Below are positions 3,265 to 40,064 of a DNA stretch of 64,000 nt, piece after piece. Below the pieces are notes generated by a model. The model did not search any database. It saw nothing but the letters and a program-made list of their open reading frames with translations, and was not told the origin of the DNA. This stretch comes from Dermatophilus congolensis. Lineage in GTDB: Bacteria; Actinomycetota; Actinomycetes; Actinomycetales; Dermatophilaceae. The translations under genes were made by a program, and so were the position numbers. The stretch's first letter is position 1. Each line of letters opens with the position of its first letter. The stretch lies in contig NZ_UFYA01000001.1 in NCBI RefSeq assembly GCF_900447215.1, positions 2,356,001-2,420,000 of the forward strand, read 5' to 3'.

Positions 3265-3312
3265 TGCGAGGGGGGGTTGGGAGATGACGTCATCTCCCAA
3301 CCCCCCCTCGCA
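3265..3312. terminator. 48-bp perfect palindrome after dnaA
   Basis: Both 24-base arms match exactly with no spacer: TGCGAGGGGGGG... on the left, centred on GACGTC, and CCCCCCCTCGCA on the right. It starts 16 bp beyond the dnaA stop on the dnaA transcript side, so it probably ends dnaA transcripts. No clear T-run follows, and DNA this symmetrical could also extrude as a cruciform. Confidence 0.75.
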
Positions 3313-4888: not shown

Positions 4889-5688
4889 GTTGTGCCCTCC
4901 TGCTGAGTATGTAATGCGGTGATAAGTCCTAGGACACGTTAGGTGTCCACTGCGCGAGCATCTTGTGGGAAACCCTGTGTGTACCTGCCCGCGCAGGGCA
5001 TCAATTTTCTCGAGAAGTTTTATTGAAACATGCAGGCTACAGTGCTGCCCAGGCTGTTTCCACAGCTGTGGAAACAGCCTGGGGGTACAGGATACGGGAT
5101 ATCCACAGGCTACTAGTGCTCGACCATTGACAAAGTCAATTAAGGTCATGAAACCTGCTGCTTAGGTGGGTATTTGACGAAGTATTAAGGGCAGTGCATG
5201 CATGTGGATGCCCTGTGGGAATCTCTCTCGCTTAGGTTTTCGGGTCACTTGGCCGGTGGAAAATAGACAGCGAGTCGTGCTGGCTAGTCGTAAGCAGAAT
5301 CTGTCAATCGGGTCGGCGGATAGGTTTGCGTTCAAATGCACGAACTCATCGGCCGCTGGGTGAACTGCCAGATGAGGTAGCTGTATTCGCTGTGGTTCGA
5401 GTAAGTTAGCCCAGCAAGTTTGACCTCTATTTCCTATTTCACGTAACGTGGTGTGTCAGTCGGTTTCGACGGGCGGTTTCGTGTGCCCGTCTCCAAGCTG
5501 TGGTAGTCAAGACGTAACGTGCGCAGAAGTCATGAGTTTCTCTCGCGCGTAGTGACTAGAATGAGAGTGGAGACGGACCTTCGATCCCGACCGTCGGCGG
5601 CGAGGCTTTCTCAATCGTTCGAGATTTGCGTCGCGTCATGGTCGAGCCGACTTAACCGACTCGTCGACGAGACCCAACGGAGTTCAAC
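4889..5688. promoter_or_regulatory. divergent dnaA / rpmH promoter region
   Basis: This 800-base stretch has no convincing gene. It should carry the promoters of dnaA (leftward) and of rpmH-rnpA-yidD-yidC (rightward). Visible elements are a perfect 36-bp palindrome (5048-5083), a near-consensus DnaA box ATATCCACA (5099-5107), TTGACG at 5174 and a possible rpmH -10 TAGAAT at 5557. Transcription start sites cannot be fixed from sequence. Confidence 0.65.
5048..5083. repeat. 36-bp perfect palindrome upstream of dnaA
   Basis: CCCAGGCTGTTTCCACAG followed directly by its exact reverse complement, with no spacer. It lies about 160 bp before the dnaA start. Its core TTCCACAGCTGTGGAA is shared in part with the region before dnaB (CCACAGCTGTGG at 29441). 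It may be a binding site for a replication regulator or a structured leader element. Confidence 0.8.
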
Positions 5689-8258: not shown

Positions 8259-8295
8259 TGATGGCAGTGGCAGCTAGGCGCGGCCACTGCCATCA
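8259..8295 (+). terminator. hairpin after jag
   Basis: TGATGGCAGTGG pairs exactly with CCACTGCCATCA across a 13-nt loop, followed by a pyrimidine-rich stretch. It lies between jag and rsmG and is probably a terminator or attenuator. Confidence 0.65.
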
Positions 8296-9193: not shown

Positions 9194-9209
9194 TGTTTCA
9201 CGTGAAACT
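9194..9209. promoter_or_regulatory. parS: parS site 1
   Basis: TGTTTCACGTGAAACT, one mismatch from consensus TGTTTCACGTGAAACA, about 60 bp upstream of parA. Confidence 0.9.
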
Positions 9210-9223
9210 TCTTGTCGGAGCTC

Positions 9224-9239
9224 TGTTTCTCGTGAAACG
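9224..9239. promoter_or_regulatory. parS: parS-like site 2
   Basis: TGTTTCTCGTGAAACG, two mismatches from consensus, 30 bp from site 1, so nearly three helical turns between dyads. It lies in the parA promoter region, so ParB may also affect parA expression. Confidence 0.75.
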
Positions 9240-9266: not shown

Positions 9267-10217
9267 GTGCCCCAGGAGTCACCAGCACTGACAGTAAAAG
9301 ATCATGCTGACCCCTTAGACGAAAAGGAACCAGATGAATCAGCGCTGAACAGGGTCGTTTCCCAGCCGAAGCGGCGTTTGATTCGACCTAAAGGATCTCC
9401 CTGGAAGAAACCTGCGCATACCAGGATCATCACTATCGCAAATCAAAAAGGAGGCGTTGGGAAAACAACTACAGCAGTCAATCTTGCAACAGCTCTGGCA
9501 CTTGGAGGGCAACGAGTATTACTTATAGATTCGGACCCACAAGGCAATGCAAGCACCGCACTAGGGATCGAGCATTCCTCAGAGGTCGACAGTATTTATG
9601 ATGTTCTGATTGAAGATGCTTCGCTGATTGATGTTGAGCAACCTTCTGCGTTAACCCAAGGACTAACGTGCGTACCTGCCACGATTGAGTTAGCTGGTGC
9701 TGAGATAGAACTAGTTTCATTCGTTGCACGTGAAACACGACTGCAAAGAGCAATTGAGTCTTATCTGCTGCAAAAAAATAAAGACAAAGATCCAGTTGAT
9801 TATGTGATTATCGACTGCCCCCCAAGCTTGGGACTTCTCACGCTTAATGCTTTTGTGGCTGCTCGCGAAGTGCTTATTCCGATTCAGTGTGAATACTACG
9901 CTTTGGAAGGTTTGTCGATGTTGATCCGCAATATCGACATGATCCGGCGACACCTCAACCCTGTGCTTCACATTTCGACGATCTTGCTCACGATGTATGA
10001 CGGGCGCACCAAGCTTTCATCGCAGGTAGCAGAAGAAGTTCGCTCAGTTTTCCCAGATCAGGTACTCAATGCGATGGTGCCGCGATCTGTTCGGATATCT
10101 GAAGCTCCAAGCTACGGCGAAACCGTTTTGACTTACGATCCGATGAGTACGGGATCCTTAGCGTATCTAGGTGTTGCTCGAGAGTTTGTTGAACGCGATC
10201 CAAGTTCTCAATCGTAA
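9267..10217 (+). CDS. parA: chromosome partitioning ATPase ParA (Soj)
   Basis: A Walker-type ATPase that binds the nucleoid and moves ParB-parS complexes during segregation. It has 316 residues. After a hydrophilic extension of about 50 residues comes the deviant Walker A NQKGGVGKTTT (59-69), then DSDPQGNASTALG and VIIDCPPSLGLLTLNA. GTG start after AAGGAGGAGC. It is the first gene of the parA-parB pair, flanked by parS sites; a further parS-like match lies within its coding sequence. Confidence 0.97.
   Translation: MPQESPALTVKDHADPLDEKEPDESALNRVVSQPKRRLIRPKGSPWKKPAHTRIITIANQKGGVGKTTTAVNLATALALGGQRVLLIDSDPQGNASTALGIEHSSEVDSIYDVLIEDASLIDVEQPSALTQGLTCVPATIELAGAEIELVSFVARETRLQRAIESYLLQKNKDKDPVDYVIIDCPPSLGLLTLNAFVAAREVLIPIQCEYYALEGLSMLIRNIDMIRRHLNPVLHISTILLTMYDGRTKLSSQVAEEVRSVFPDQVLNAMVPRSVRISEAPSYGETVLTYDPMSTGSLAYLGVAREFVERDPSSQS
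9722..9737. promoter_or_regulatory. parS: parS-like site inside parA
   Basis: CGTTGCACGTGAAACA, two mismatches from the parS consensus, within the parA reading frame. Confidence 0.55.
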
Positions 10218-10221
10218 GTAA

Positions 10222-10237
10222 TGTTTCACGGGAAACA
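10222..10237. promoter_or_regulatory. parS: parS site between parA and parB
   Basis: TGTTTCACGGGAAACA, one mismatch from consensus, immediately after the parA stop. Confidence 0.88.
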
Positions 10238-10303: not shown

Positions 10304-11608
10304 ATGAGTAGTGATCGGCAGCGTGGTTTAGGGCGGGGGTTGGGGGCTTTGATTCCCACTGATGTCCCGCGAGAATCACTTGCAGCTAAACCACGAAGTA
10401 CAAGGCCCTTGACTGAGTCAGTTCCTGCAGTGCAAACCAGGCCAGCAGATTTATTCTTTGAAAGCGACGTTACTCGGCGCACACGAGAATCTGCTTCTTC
10501 ATCAGCAGCTGCATCTGGACGAAAAAATAAGTCGAGTGCTCCTACAGATAGTCAGGGACGTCGTGCTGCTTTAGATAAAGCTTTCGAGAGTGTAGGACGT
10601 GCAGGGGCGGATGTCAGTTCTTCAGAATCTGATGTAGTTCAAAGTAGTTCTGATGTTTCACGGGAAACCAAAGAACTAAGTAAAATTCATCTCGAATCTG
10701 AAGGAGAAATAGTCATAACTTCCACAGAGCCCCGAGAGGGAGTCGTGGTGAAAGATGACTTGTCTCCTGTTCCAGGGATTGAGCTTGCTCAGATTGATAT
10801 TGATGCAATTCACCCGAATGCGAAGCAACCTCGAACAGTTTTTGATGAGCAAGAGCTAGATGAACTTGTTGCCAGCATCAAAGAAATTGGAATACTCCAA
10901 CCAATTGTTGTTCGGCATAGTCAAGAAATTGAATCTGGCTATGAGTTAATTATGGGTGAGAGGCGTTGGCGCGCTTCCCGAATAGCGGGGCTGCAATCAG
11001 TGCCTGCAATCATCAAAAGCACACCTGATGACGCAATGCTGCGTGATGCGCTTTTGGAAAACTTGCATCGAGTTCAGCTCAATCCTTTGGAAGAAGCCGC
11101 TGCCTATCAGCAACTGCTTGATGATTTTGGTTGCACCCACGAAGAACTCGCAGATCGTGTAGCTCGATCACGCCCTCAGATTAGTAATACATTGCGACTT
11201 CTGAGGCTTCCGCCTCTTGTTGCTCGGCGTGTAGCAGCTGGTGTTTTAACTGCAGGCCATGCTCGTGCCTTGTTGGGTCTTTCAGATGCAGCAGCGATAG
11301 AGCGTCTAGCTCAGCGAATAGTGGCAGAAGGCCTATCTGTGCGAACAGTAGAAGAAATTGTTGCCGTTTCGTCAAATAATGCTAGTAGTAAACCTCGTCG
11401 TCCGCGCAGTTCTCAACATAATCAGGGGTATGAAGATTTAGCAGCAAGACTTACAGATCGCCTTGATACTCATGTGACCATAAATATGGGGAGAAAAAAA
11501 GGGAAACTAACGGTTGAGTTTGCTGGTCGAGAGGACTTAGACCGAATCTTGAAGGCAATTGACTCGACCTGTTTAGCTGAAGAGAGCGAATCTATCCAGG
11601 AAACTTAA
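10304..11608 (+). CDS. parB: chromosome partitioning protein ParB (Spo0J)
   Basis: A CTP-dependent DNA clamp that loads at parS and spreads to form the segregation complex. It has 434 residues. A short conserved N terminus (RGLGRGLGALIP, the ParA-interacting end) is followed by a long disordered linker to about residue 155. Then come the ParB/Srx-like nuclease fold with the CTP-binding motif GERRWR (218-223), the helix-turn-helix ELADRVARSRPQISNTLRLL and a C-terminal dimerisation domain. GGAGGAGGAAG precedes the ATG. A parS-like site lies in its linker-coding DNA. Confidence 0.97.
   Translation: MSSDRQRGLGRGLGALIPTDVPRESLAAKPRSTRPLTESVPAVQTRPADLFFESDVTRRTRESASSSAAASGRKNKSSAPTDSQGRRAALDKAFESVGRAGADVSSSESDVVQSSSDVSRETKELSKIHLESEGEIVITSTEPREGVVVKDDLSPVPGIELAQIDIDAIHPNAKQPRTVFDEQELDELVASIKEIGILQPIVVRHSQEIESGYELIMGERRWRASRIAGLQSVPAIIKSTPDDAMLRDALLENLHRVQLNPLEEAAAYQQLLDDFGCTHEELADRVARSRPQISNTLRLLRLPPLVARRVAAGVLTAGHARALLGLSDAAAIERLAQRIVAEGLSVRTVEEIVAVSSNNASSKPRRPRSSQHNQGYEDLAARLTDRLDTHVTINMGRKKGKLTVEFAGREDLDRILKAIDSTCLAEESESIQET
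10654..10669. promoter_or_regulatory. parS: parS-like site inside parB
   Basis: TGTTTCACGGGAAACC, two mismatches from consensus, in the segment coding for the ParB disordered linker. Confidence 0.75.
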
Positions 11609-11611
11609 AAT

Positions 11612-11663
11612 TAACAAGGGTTGGGGTGTTGTTTCATGTGAAACAACACCCCAACCCTTGTTA
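11612..11663. terminator. bidirectional palindrome with a parS site at its centre
   Basis: Two exact 25-base arms (from TAACAAGGGTTGGGGTG) surround a single central mismatched pair. The arms lie between the convergent parB and trxA genes and start 3 bp after the parB stop, so the element should terminate both. Its centre, TGTTTCATGTGAAACA (11630-11645), is one mismatch from the ParB target parS. Confidence 0.85.
11630..11645. promoter_or_regulatory. parS: parS site in the parB-trxA terminator
   Basis: TGTTTCATGTGAAACA, one mismatch from consensus, forming the core of the 52-bp palindrome. Confidence 0.8.
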
Positions 11664-11665
11664 TA

Positions 11666-11992
11666 TCAGGCAATGAAGTCTGCGATTTCGCGGAGCAACT
11701 TTGGCTTCGGGTGGGCTCCGACAATTGTTTTCACAATTCCCCCGCCCTGGAAGACGTTCATCGTAGGAATACTTACGATTCCGTACTTAGCTGCAGTTTT
11801 CGGGTTTTCATCAGTGTTGAGTTTGATAATTTCGATCGAACCAGCATTCTCGGCTGCGATTTCTTCGAGGATTGGAGCTACAGCACGGCAAGGACCGCAC
11901 CATGGTGCCCAAAAATCGACAAGAACGGTTTTTTCATTCTTGAGAACGTCAGCTTCGAAATCAGCATCACTGGTCTCTTTAATAGCTGCCAT
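11666..11992 (-). CDS. trxA: thioredoxin
   Basis: A cytoplasmic disulfide reductant, recharged by thioredoxin reductase. It has 108 residues and the active site WAPWCGPCRAVAP with cysteines 32 and 35, plus the later cis-proline motif VSIPTMNVF. Full length and typical. It follows trxB on the same strand with an 83-bp gap and ends against the shared parB terminator. Confidence 0.97.
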   Translation of the reverse strand: MAAIKETSDADFEADVLKNEKTVLVDFWAPWCGPCRAVAPILEEIAAENAGSIEIIKLNTDENPKTAAKYGIVSIPTMNVFQGGGIVKTIVGAHPKPKLLREIADFIA

Positions 11993-22018: not shown

Positions 22019-24241
22019 GTGAGATCTCGCGTCGTCGTCGGTAGAGGCGGCAAGGTCCGCAAGGGTCGTTTCCGTGCCCTTAAGGTGTTTTCTGCTCTTG
22101 TTCTGAGCCTGATTGTTCTTGCAATTGCAGGAGTGGTTTTCGCCTTCGTGGCTATTAAGGTGCCTAATGCCAACGAAGTTGCTAAGCAGGAAACGTCGAT
22201 TTTCTACTATTCGGATGGTAAGACTGAGATTGGTCGTACCAGTAGCGTAAACCGTGTCTCGGTTACGCAGGACCAGATGCCAAAGCTTCTGCAGAAAGCT
22301 GTCTTGGCTGCTGAGGATCGTAGTTTTTATGAAAACCCAGGTGTCTCTTTTATTGGCCTTGGTCGCGCAGTAGTGGCGATGGTTACAGGTGGGCCGACCC
22401 AGGGTGGATCTACTATTACCCAGCAGTATGTCAAAAATTATTTCTTGACGCACGATCAGACTTTTGCTCGTAAGGGTAAGGAGCTGGTTATTGCATTAAA
22501 GCTTGAGCAGGAGATGTCCAAAGATCAGATCCTGACTGACTATCTAAACACTATTTATTTTGGTCGACTTTCTTACGGTGTTCAGGCTGCATCGCAGGCG
22601 TACTTCAACAAAGATGTCAAGAATTTGTCCACTTCTGAAGCGATCTTCTTGGCTTCGATTATTCAGTCTCCGGGAAACTTTGATCCTTCAAATGGGGAGA
22701 AGACCGTTGGGCGCCTGAAGAGCCGTATGAAGTATGTGGTTGATGGAATGCTTGAAGAGGGGTGGATATCGGCTGAGGAGGCGCGGAATGTGTCTGTTCC
22801 TCAGACAGTTGCCCCTAAGCGCAAGGTTTCTTTGGGTGGCCCGGGTGGGTACCTGGTTGCGTTGGCCCGTGATGAGCTGGTGAGTAAGGCTGGTATTGGA
22901 GAGGCAGAGCTGGAGCGTGGTGGCCTTCGTGTAGTGACCACTATCGATAAGAAGGCTCAGGACAATGCTATTCAATCGGTGGAGAATAATAAGCCAGGTG
23001 AGGCTCGTATTCGCACGGGTCTGGTGAGCATTAAGCCTGGTGACGGTGCAATTCAAGCTTTGTATGGCGGTTCGAACTTCTCGAAGAACCCATACTCTGC
23101 TGCGCATCAGGCGCAGTTGCAGGCTGGATCTACATTCAAGGTTTTTGCTGTCGCTGCGGCTTTGGAGCAGGAAATCAGTACGCGGACAGTGCTTCATGGA
23201 GACAGTCCGCATACTTTTGGCTCGGAAATCACGGGCGCGGAGCCGTGGGATGTTCGGAACTATGCAAATGTCAGTTATGGAAATGTTTCTGTTCGGCAGG
23301 CCTTGGCTCACTCTGTGAATACAGCGTTTGCTGAATTGAACTTTAAGGTTGGTCCACAAAAGACAAAAGACATGATGGTAAAGCTCGGGATCCCTGAGAA
23401 TTCTCCAGACTTGGTTGCTTCAGGTTCGAATGTCTTTGGAACAGCTTCCATCCGTGTTATTGACCTGGCGAACGCATATGCAACTATTGCCGCGAAAGGC
23501 ATGAAGGCGGAACCGTACATTGTAAAGTCGGTTAACGACAATGTTGGAGTCATGAAAGAGTATGTGGCTTCGCCTTCGCCGACTCGGGTGATTAGTGAAG
23601 CTGTGGCTGCAGACACGATCGAAGCTATGCGGCGGGTTTTGTCTGACGAAGGTACGGCTAAGAAAGCATCTGGCCTTTGGTTCCCGGCTGCTGGGAAAAC
23701 AGGAACCACGGATAATTCGAAGGCAGTTTGGTTCGGTGGATTTACTCCACAGGCATCTACAGCTGTGGCTCTGTATATGCCTGATGAGAAGGGTATTCCG
23801 CAGCCGATGCATGGAATCGGCGGCAAGGCCGAGCTAACGGGTGGAACTTATCCAGTGAGTATCTGGATGGGCTATATGCGCCGTTTCATGGAAGGGAAAC
23901 ATGTCATTGCTTTCCCTGAACGTGTAGGAATTGGTGACTCTCAGGTGCCGTCTTGGTCGGAGAGCACTCCGCCTGCCACTCCGACCGGGACCTCGACCAC
24001 TGCTACGACTAAGCCGGGTGAAAGCCCGACAACGGACGACAGCAACGGGAAAGAGCCCAAGCCGACGGGCGTTCCTACAGGAACGCATTCTCCAGCACCG
24101 ACACGTGGCGGTAGCAGCTCTGACCGCGGTCGAGGTAAAGACAGACCTAGTCGCCCGGACCCGGGTGATTCTGATGGCGAACAGTCACCGCGTGAGCCGG
24201 GAGGCTATATCAGCGGTGGGGCCTCCCGTTTGGAGGAGTAG
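22019..24241 (+). CDS. class A penicillin-binding protein
   Basis: A bifunctional peptidoglycan synthase with 740 residues. A basic cytoplasmic start is followed by one membrane segment (VFSALVLSLIVLAIAGVVFAF, about 23-43). The GT51 glycosyltransferase has AAEDRSFYENPG and GGSTITQQYVKN. The transpeptidase has AGSTFKVFA (active serine), SVNTAF and GKTGTT. A long Pro/Thr/Ser/Gly tail ends the protein. Start is GTG after GGAGGGGAGTGAC. The stop codon lies inside a 52-bp perfect palindrome. Confidence 0.95.
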   Translation: MRSRVVVGRGGKVRKGRFRALKVFSALVLSLIVLAIAGVVFAFVAIKVPNANEVAKQETSIFYYSDGKTEIGRTSSVNRVSVTQDQMPKLLQKAVLAAEDRSFYENPGVSFIGLGRAVVAMVTGGPTQGGSTITQQYVKNYFLTHDQTFARKGKELVIALKLEQEMSKDQILTDYLNTIYFGRLSYGVQAASQAYFNKDVKNLSTSEAIFLASIIQSPGNFDPSNGEKTVGRLKSRMKYVVDGMLEEGWISAEEARNVSVPQTVAPKRKVSLGGPGGYLVALARDELVSKAGIGEAELERGGLRVVTTIDKKAQDNAIQSVENNKPGEARIRTGLVSIKPGDGAIQALYGGSNFSKNPYSAAHQAQLQAGSTFKVFAVAAALEQEISTRTVLHGDSPHTFGSEITGAEPWDVRNYANVSYGNVSVRQALAHSVNTAFAELNFKVGPQKTKDMMVKLGIPENSPDLVASGSNVFGTASIRVIDLANAYATIAAKGMKAEPYIVKSVNDNVGVMKEYVASPSPTRVISEAVAADTIEAMRRVLSDEGTAKKASGLWFPAAGKTGTTDNSKAVWFGGFTPQASTAVALYMPDEKGIPQPMHGIGGKAELTGGTYPVSIWMGYMRRFMEGKHVIAFPERVGIGDSQVPSWSESTPPATPTGTSTTATTKPGESPTTDDSNGKEPKPTGVPTGTHSPAPTRGGSSSDRGRGKDRPSRPDPGDSDGEQSPREPGGYISGGASRLEE

Positions 24242-24288
24242 TGCTTTGGCTCCGGTCGAGATATCTCGACCGGAGCCAAAGCACTACT
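24237..24288. terminator. 52-bp perfect palindrome over the PBP stop codon
   Basis: Two exact 26-base arms with no spacer, centred on GAGATATCTC. The first arm includes the TAG stop of the PBP gene. It should end PBP transcripts before the next gene, 34 bp on. Confidence 0.8.
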
Positions 24289-39000: not shown

Positions 39001-39035
39001 GGAAAGGGCCTGGAACATTGTTCCAGGCCCTTTCC
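39001..39035. terminator. terminator after 5S rRNA
   Basis: GGAAAGGGCCTGGAAC pairs with GTTCCAGGCCCTTTCC (16 bp) around ATT, followed by TCATACCC. It ends the rRNA operon. Confidence 0.8.
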
Positions 39036-39052
39036 TCATACCCAAAAACACT

Positions 39053-39107
39053 AGTTAAGGGGGTGAGGGGTAAAGCATCAGATGCTTTACCCCTCACCCC
39101 CTTAACT
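39053..39107. terminator. 55-bp palindrome after ldh
   Basis: Two exact 27-base arms (AGTTAAGGGGGTGAGGGG...) with a single A between them, 6 bp beyond the ldh stop and only 17 bp from the 5S terminator. It should end ldh transcripts and, with its neighbour, insulate the convergent rRNA operon. Confidence 0.8.
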
Positions 39108-39113
39108 CTTCTT

Positions 39114-40064
39114 TTATTCTGCGTGAGTTGCCTCATCGTAGTGAGTCTTCAAAATATTCACACTCTGTTCGAAAGCGGCGCGCTCTTCCTCATCCAAGTC
39201 CAACTCCACAATGTGTTTCACCCCACCACGAGACAAAATGGCAGGCACACCAACAGCCACGCCTTCCTGCCCATACTCACCATCAAGAATTGCACTCACA
39301 GGCATCGTCGCTTTTTCATTCTTCAAAATCGCACGCGTCACCCGAGCCAACGACATGCCAATTCCGTAGCTAGTCGAACCCTTCGCATCAATAATCTCGT
39401 AAGCAGACTTCCGCGTCCGCTCAAAAATTTCATCCAAGTCCGACTTCAACTGTGGATCATTCTTAAACTGACGACTCAAAGAACGACCTGCAACCGAAGC
39501 TGAACTCCACACAGGCAACTCAGAATCGCCGTGCTCACCAATGATCGTCGCATGTACATTCGCGGTCGACACCTCAAAGTGACGTCCCAAGTGGAACCGC
39601 AAACGAGCAGTATCCAACGTAGTACCCGACCCCAAAACCTGCTCACGAGGCAGGCCACTAAAACGATACGTAGCAAAAGTTAAAATATCGACAGGGTTCG
39701 TAGCCACCAAGAAAATACCGTCAAACCCAGAAGCCATTACCTGAGAAACAACACTCGAATAAATCTTCAAATTAGTGTCAATCAAATCAAGACGCGTCTG
39801 ACCAGGCTTCTGCGCCGCACCAGCACAAATAACTACCATGGCTGCGTCTTTACATGCACTGTAATCACCAAAAGTCACATGTACCGGCGCCGGGGCCCAC
39901 GCTTCGCCATGGTTCAAATCCAACACATCGGCACGCGACTTAGTCTCATTCAAATCAATCAAAACAAGATCTTCACAGATCCCCTGATTTACCACTGCAT
40001 ACGCATACGCCATTCCCACAGCGCCCGTACCAATAAGCACAACCCGATTCGGCACATACTTCAC
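39114..40064 (-). CDS. ldh: L-lactate dehydrogenase
   Basis: An NAD-dependent enzyme interconverting pyruvate and L-lactate. It has 316 residues with the NAD site VVLIGTGAVGMAYAYA, the acidic residue after beta-2 (VLIDLNE), substrate-binding motif ATNPVDILT and catalytic histidine in IIGEHGDSE. An ATG five codons upstream is possible, but GGAGG in that very codon context lies 8 nt before the GTG chosen here. It is convergent with the rRNA operon and divergent from the acyl-CoA synthetase. Confidence 0.95.
   Translation of the reverse strand: MKYVPNRVVLIGTGAVGMAYAYAVVNQGICEDLVLIDLNETKSRADVLDLNHGEAWAPAPVHVTFGDYSACKDAAMVVICAGAAQKPGQTRLDLIDTNLKIYSSVVSQVMASGFDGIFLVATNPVDILTFATYRFSGLPREQVLGSGTTLDTARLRFHLGRHFEVSTANVHATIIGEHGDSELPVWSSASVAGRSLSRQFKNDPQLKSDLDEIFERTRKSAYEIIDAKGSTSYGIGMSLARVTRAILKNEKATMPVSAILDGEYGQEGVAVGVPAILSRGGVKHIVELDLDEEERAAFEQSVNILKTHYDEATHAE

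Follow-up and report, generated by a model that had tools for sequence, protein, structure and literature searches.

The window, a 64,000-nucleotide stretch of a Dermatophilus congolensis contig (NZ_UFYA01000001.1, positions 2,356,001 to 2,420,000), carries parA and parB followed by trxA in convergent orientation. Genes were assigned by Pfam and candidate ParB sites by their match to parS:

9194 to 9209: parS with one mismatch, TGTTTCACGTGAAACT, upstream of parA
9224 to 9239: parS-like, two mismatches; the counterpart in the sister species is a perfect 14-mer
9267 to 10217, plus strand: parA
9722 to 9737: parS-like, half-degenerate site within parA
10222 to 10237: parS-like, TGTTTCACGGGAAACA, in the parA-parB gap; identical in the sister species
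10304 to 11608, plus strand: parB (ParB_N, HTH_ParB and ParB_C domains)
10654 to 10669: parS-like, TGTTTCACGGGAAACC, within parB, where it encodes VSRET; identical in the sister species
11612 to 11663: perfect palindrome, a predicted bidirectional intrinsic terminator common to parB and trxA (from its fold, its arms and paired indels in the sister species)
11630 to 11645: parS-like core of the palindrome, TGTTTCATGTGAAACA, one mismatch from parS; TGTTTCATATGAAACA in the sister species
11666 to 11992, minus strand: trxA (thioredoxin), convergent with parB

The palindrome occupies 52 of the 57 nt that separate parB from trxA. Since the parB stop lies at 11608 and that of minus-strand trxA at 11666, it takes up virtually the whole gap, beginning 3 nt past the former stop and 2 nt past the latter. 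Its two 25-nt arms (11612-11636 and 11639-11663) are 100% complementary and are separated by a TG spacer. As RNA, the stretch folds into a stable, G+C-rich hairpin with a 24-bp stem and the 4-nt loop AUGU (-42.5 kcal/mol, z -8.9); because the loop is this short, the outer base pairs of parS fall within the stem and only the parS centre falls within the loop. A U-rich tail (TTAATTTTAA) follows the hairpin on the trxA side only, the parB side (plus strand) being without a U-tract. The sequence-only reading of this DNA had described two exact 25-base arms around a near-parS core between convergent parB and trxA, and arms, fold and core match all bear this out. Its further proposal of a bidirectional terminator agrees with a hairpin adjoining both stops and with the tail on the trxA side, but not with the missing tail on the parB side.

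Long perfect palindromes 3' of stop codons are nothing unusual in this genome; examples lie at 3265-3312, at 8259-8295 (an ordinary hairpin in the jag-rsmG gap of the window) and at 24237-24288. The last of these, a perfect 26-nt palindrome without a spacer, overlaps the end of a 740-aa reading frame and is probably another long terminator. Two adjoining long palindromes with 17- and 35-nt arms lie at 39001-39115, near 40 kb; the GC skew of the window also changes sign near 40 kb, though parAB is located near 10 kb.

The single mismatch between the core at 11630-11645 and parS (TGTTTCACGTGAAACA) falls on the central CG. The core is the last member of a group of six parS-like sites clustered between 9194 and 11645, and these six compare with 0.38 sites expected in the window at up to three mismatches. 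Genome-wide (2.63 Mb), seven parS-like sites are found at up to two mismatches, six of them inside the 2.5-kb parAB region. For a perfect palindrome drawn at random, the probability that its apex comes as close as one symmetric change to parS is about 4e-4. Other parS-like sites of the same genome vary at neighbouring central positions (CACGGG, CTCGTG). In the ParB of the window, R290, G318 and R321 correspond to R173, G201 and R204 of Caulobacter ParB, the parS-type recognition residues (mapping via PMC7383237), and R301 corresponds to Caulobacter position 184, at which Lys or Arg has been described as permissive (PMC7383237). With an Arg at this position, the protein may plausibly tolerate imperfect parS sites. 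In C. glutamicum, degenerate sites with at least three mismatches did not recruit ParB, while sites with one or two mismatches are not discussed there (PMC7083940). A search of a plasmid collection with parB retrieved no close relative.

Comparison within the genus covers two species, as the assembly of a third (G002) contains no parB and yielded no contig with its trxA. The closest species compared, whose ParB is 90% identical, has the same hairpin between parB and trxA, with paired 2-bp deletions in both arms that leave the pairing intact; judging from these paired changes, the hairpin is clearly being maintained in this genus by compensatory change. The sister core, TGTTTCATATGAAACA, has the centre CATATG: both central parS bases are changed and every outer base is kept, so that TGTTTCA...TGAAACA is present in both species. 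Most other parS sites are unchanged in the sister species, and one is better. The loss of the central CG, by one base here and by two in the sister, suggests that the core is probably a weakened ParB site in this genus, and the change of both central bases in the sister makes ParB binding at 11630-11645 uncertain. According to the sequence-only reading, relatives conserving only the hairpin around a core unlike parS would refute its proposal; the sister species goes half of the way, with the hairpin kept and the centre altered, but the outer bases intact.

We gathered 107 actinobacterial loci by ParB similarity alone and searched each of them for parS 16-mers and for base complementarity beyond these. 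A site was called nested when it had at least eight net extra complementary pairs outside the parS 16-mer, a choice that biases arm pair counts because nested sites are picked for complementarity. By this definition 43 of 475 sites are nested, against about 0.4 expected from shuffled flanks. Gene context was assigned by ORF calling and anchoring on known neighbours. Where it could be resolved, 40 of 41 nested sites lie no more than 120 nt past a stop codon, compared with 53 of 227 plain intergenic parS sites (Fisher p 1e-20); the distance is mostly 19-40 nt and almost exclusively 19-75 nt, and in the 107 loci no nested site of resolvable context falls between divergent genes. These hairpins, located in terminator position, usually carry an exact parS at the tip. 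Between genera the core stays constant but the arms are unrelated in sequence, which argues that the constraint on the arms is pairing. Behind parB, nested hairpins are found in Isoptericola halotolerans (L003, 29-nt arms), Xylanimonas (L021) and Cellulosimicrobium terreum (L048). Elsewhere the same position holds an ordinary hairpin without parS in some species, and a parS next to a hairpin in others; given that both of these states exist, a merger of parS and terminator is a simple step. In Cellulomonas cellasea (L065, around 5320-5375) the parB terminator has an ordinary inner hairpin, and each of the two arms enclosing it contains a parS-like copy. In the jag-rsmG gap of many genera, the hairpin that immediately follows jag is tipped by an exact parS (e.g. 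L003:1858-1897, L063:1035-1074 and L053:1945-1984).

For a broader survey we used a covariance model of parS with its arms, on which nested sites score about 40-60 bits, compared with about 19-32 bits for plain parS and 36.6 for one partial hairpin. In the genome of the window and in the sister genome the model matches at the parB-trxA locus only. Among Actinomycetes, nested parS hairpins were detected in 72 of 395 genomes and in 21 of 138 genera; when the palindromic core of the model was scrambled, none of the 395 genomes matched, there being no positive-control genome for this scrambled version. Within the family of the window's organism, 19 of 188 genomes (14 of 53 genera) have nested hairpins, and in the remaining 169 no hit reaches the threshold of the model. 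Sorted by gene 3' end through neighbour anchoring, about 25 of the nested hairpins lie behind parB and about 25 behind jag, with others behind rsmG, parA and trxA. Those directly behind parB, where the sequence-only reading had suggested looking for the same arrangement in related genomes, usually contain an exact parS and recur in several families. Its anatomical claim, that parS can form the centre of a terminator, finds support in the exact-parS hairpins 3' of parB, jag, rsmG, parA and further genes and in the failure of the scrambled core to match. Plain parS is still the majority form, as exact parS sites are nested in 11 of 65 cases across four genomes that were chosen for having hits. 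On contig 1 of a streptomycete-like genome (G459) there are 43 exact 14-bp parS matches, many of them paired 20-50 bp apart (e.g. 219895, 219919 and 219963).

The palindrome at 11612-11663 lies between two stop codons at the end of a parS cluster, and hairpins with an exact parS recur at gene 3' ends in other actinobacteria. We consider it probable that this is a dual-use palindrome, a terminator hairpin as RNA and a ParB loading site, or the descendant of one, as duplex, brought about by sequence economy. In the RNA form it would act as a 3'-end hairpin (intrinsic terminator) common to both convergent genes and end both transcripts; in the duplex form, its central 16 bp would be a member of the parS cluster, a loading site for ParB in its CTP-bound state, or would derive from such a site. 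Since a stem needs nothing other than base pairing, and parS is a perfect palindrome found near gene ends, parS could top a terminator stem free of cost, a merger that the compactness of convergent gaps would favour. Thereafter the two parts would come under separate constraints, the arms drifting through compensatory change and the core being held by ParB recognition. We infer all three elements of this account, namely termination at the hairpin, ParB binding at the core and sequence economy as the reason for their union.

A competing possibility, to which we give appreciable but lesser credence, is that the element now serves as a terminator only in this genus, the core being a fossil parS that ParB no longer uses and selection acting on the hairpin alone. 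The erosion of the central CG in both species, the compensatory changes that maintain the hairpin and the presence nearby of several equal or better parS-like sites would all fit this. On the other hand, the outer parS bases are kept in both species, which is weak evidence because the divergence is short; other sites of this genome tolerate changes at neighbouring central positions, and ParB has an Arg where Lys or Arg is described as permissive (PMC7383237). It is highly improbable that a long terminator acquired an apex resembling parS by accident. Long perfect palindromes past stop codons are indeed common in this genome, but the site belongs to a parS cluster, the sister species retains it, and in other genomes the 3' end of the same gene repeatedly carries a hairpin with an exact parS; these points, together with the result of the scrambled-core search and the low probability per palindrome, led us to reject chance resemblance. 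We also reject, as very unlikely, an enlarged ParB loading element, palindromic or cruciform-forming, to which the arms would belong instead of to a terminator. The arms are perfect and directly adjoin parS, but they vary freely in sequence across genomes, most parS sites do without them, and their position past stop codons, never between divergent genes where context could be resolved in the 107 loci, is that of a terminator.

A further alternative makes the nesting a regulatory device in which termination of parB and trxA would respond to ParB at the apex, or ParB loading would be governed by transcription passing through it. The sequence-only reading had speculated along these lines, with ParB clamps that could affect the release of RNA polymerase and transcription that could strip ParB, which would link segregation to parB expression. 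Nesting far above chance and its recurrence at parB in several families would be expected of such a segregation-coupled terminator, and the ParB-parS complexes of P. aeruginosa and S. pneumoniae can act on the expression of genes close by (PMC7022226, PMC5521831). However, nesting is at least as common behind jag, and is also found behind rsmG and other genes; it is seen in a minority of genomes only; and loss of Spo0J in B. subtilis left parS-adjacent genes unaltered (PMC7022226). We therefore hold this alternative to be unlikely, the equal frequency behind jag and parB favouring simple packing over a parB-specific circuit. Extended beyond this locus, the same idea would unite the nested parS sites of actinobacteria as a functional class, with loading of ParB clamps and termination acting on each other, so that segrosome assembly feeds back on parB and neighbouring operons; we put it forward as a doubtful hypothesis. 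The dual-use palindrome, with economy as its explanation, is the reading we retain.

The nested arrangement is more general than the observation of a single sequence: its dual-use anatomy is well supported, and ParB binding at the worn copy studied here is uncertain. In actinobacteria, including streptomycete-like genomes rich in parS, a centromere-like site and a terminator have repeatedly been fused into one palindrome. Genomes that hold both nested and plain parS provide a natural set in which interference between transcription and ParB loading could be looked for. The arrangement is also a potential confounder for parS genetics, since mutating or deleting a nested parS may break a terminator, and vice versa.

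The locus shares with the chromosomal parS of ParABS systems (consensus TGTTNCACGTGAAACA; B. subtilis, C. glutamicum, Streptomyces) the 16-bp palindrome, the clustering at parAB near oriC and a parS-type ParB, and differs from it in that the site forms the apex of a terminator hairpin and is one base off at the centre. The accounts cited here place parS in intergenic or coding positions and leave terminators unmentioned (PMC7083940, PMC7022226, PMC4852455, PMC12511625, PMC8743542), and our full-text search of the open-access literature yielded no report of a parS located within a terminator. Like the bidirectional intrinsic (Rho-independent) terminators of other convergent genes, the hairpin is a stem-loop directly past two facing stops; unlike them, it has an unusually long and perfect stem, a one-sided U-tract and a protein-binding palindrome at its apex. 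Depending on the bacterium, expression in the vicinity of parS is or is not altered by bound ParB (PMC7022226, PMC5521831). The parS3/parS4 sites of P. aeruginosa and comCDE of S. pneumoniae resemble the present case in that parS-bound ParB can influence nearby expression, but those effects are exerted on promoters or at a distance, with no terminator involved (PMC5521831, PMC7022226). The nearest precedent is that of the DNA uptake sequences (DUS) in Neisseria terminators, where a short recognition sequence of a DNA-handling process likewise doubles as a terminator hairpin (PMC2397512). The Neisseria sequences occur as two inverted copies at close spacing, one per arm, whereas parS is present as a single palindromic copy at the apex, the exception being the C. 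cellasea locus with its parS-like copy in both arms.
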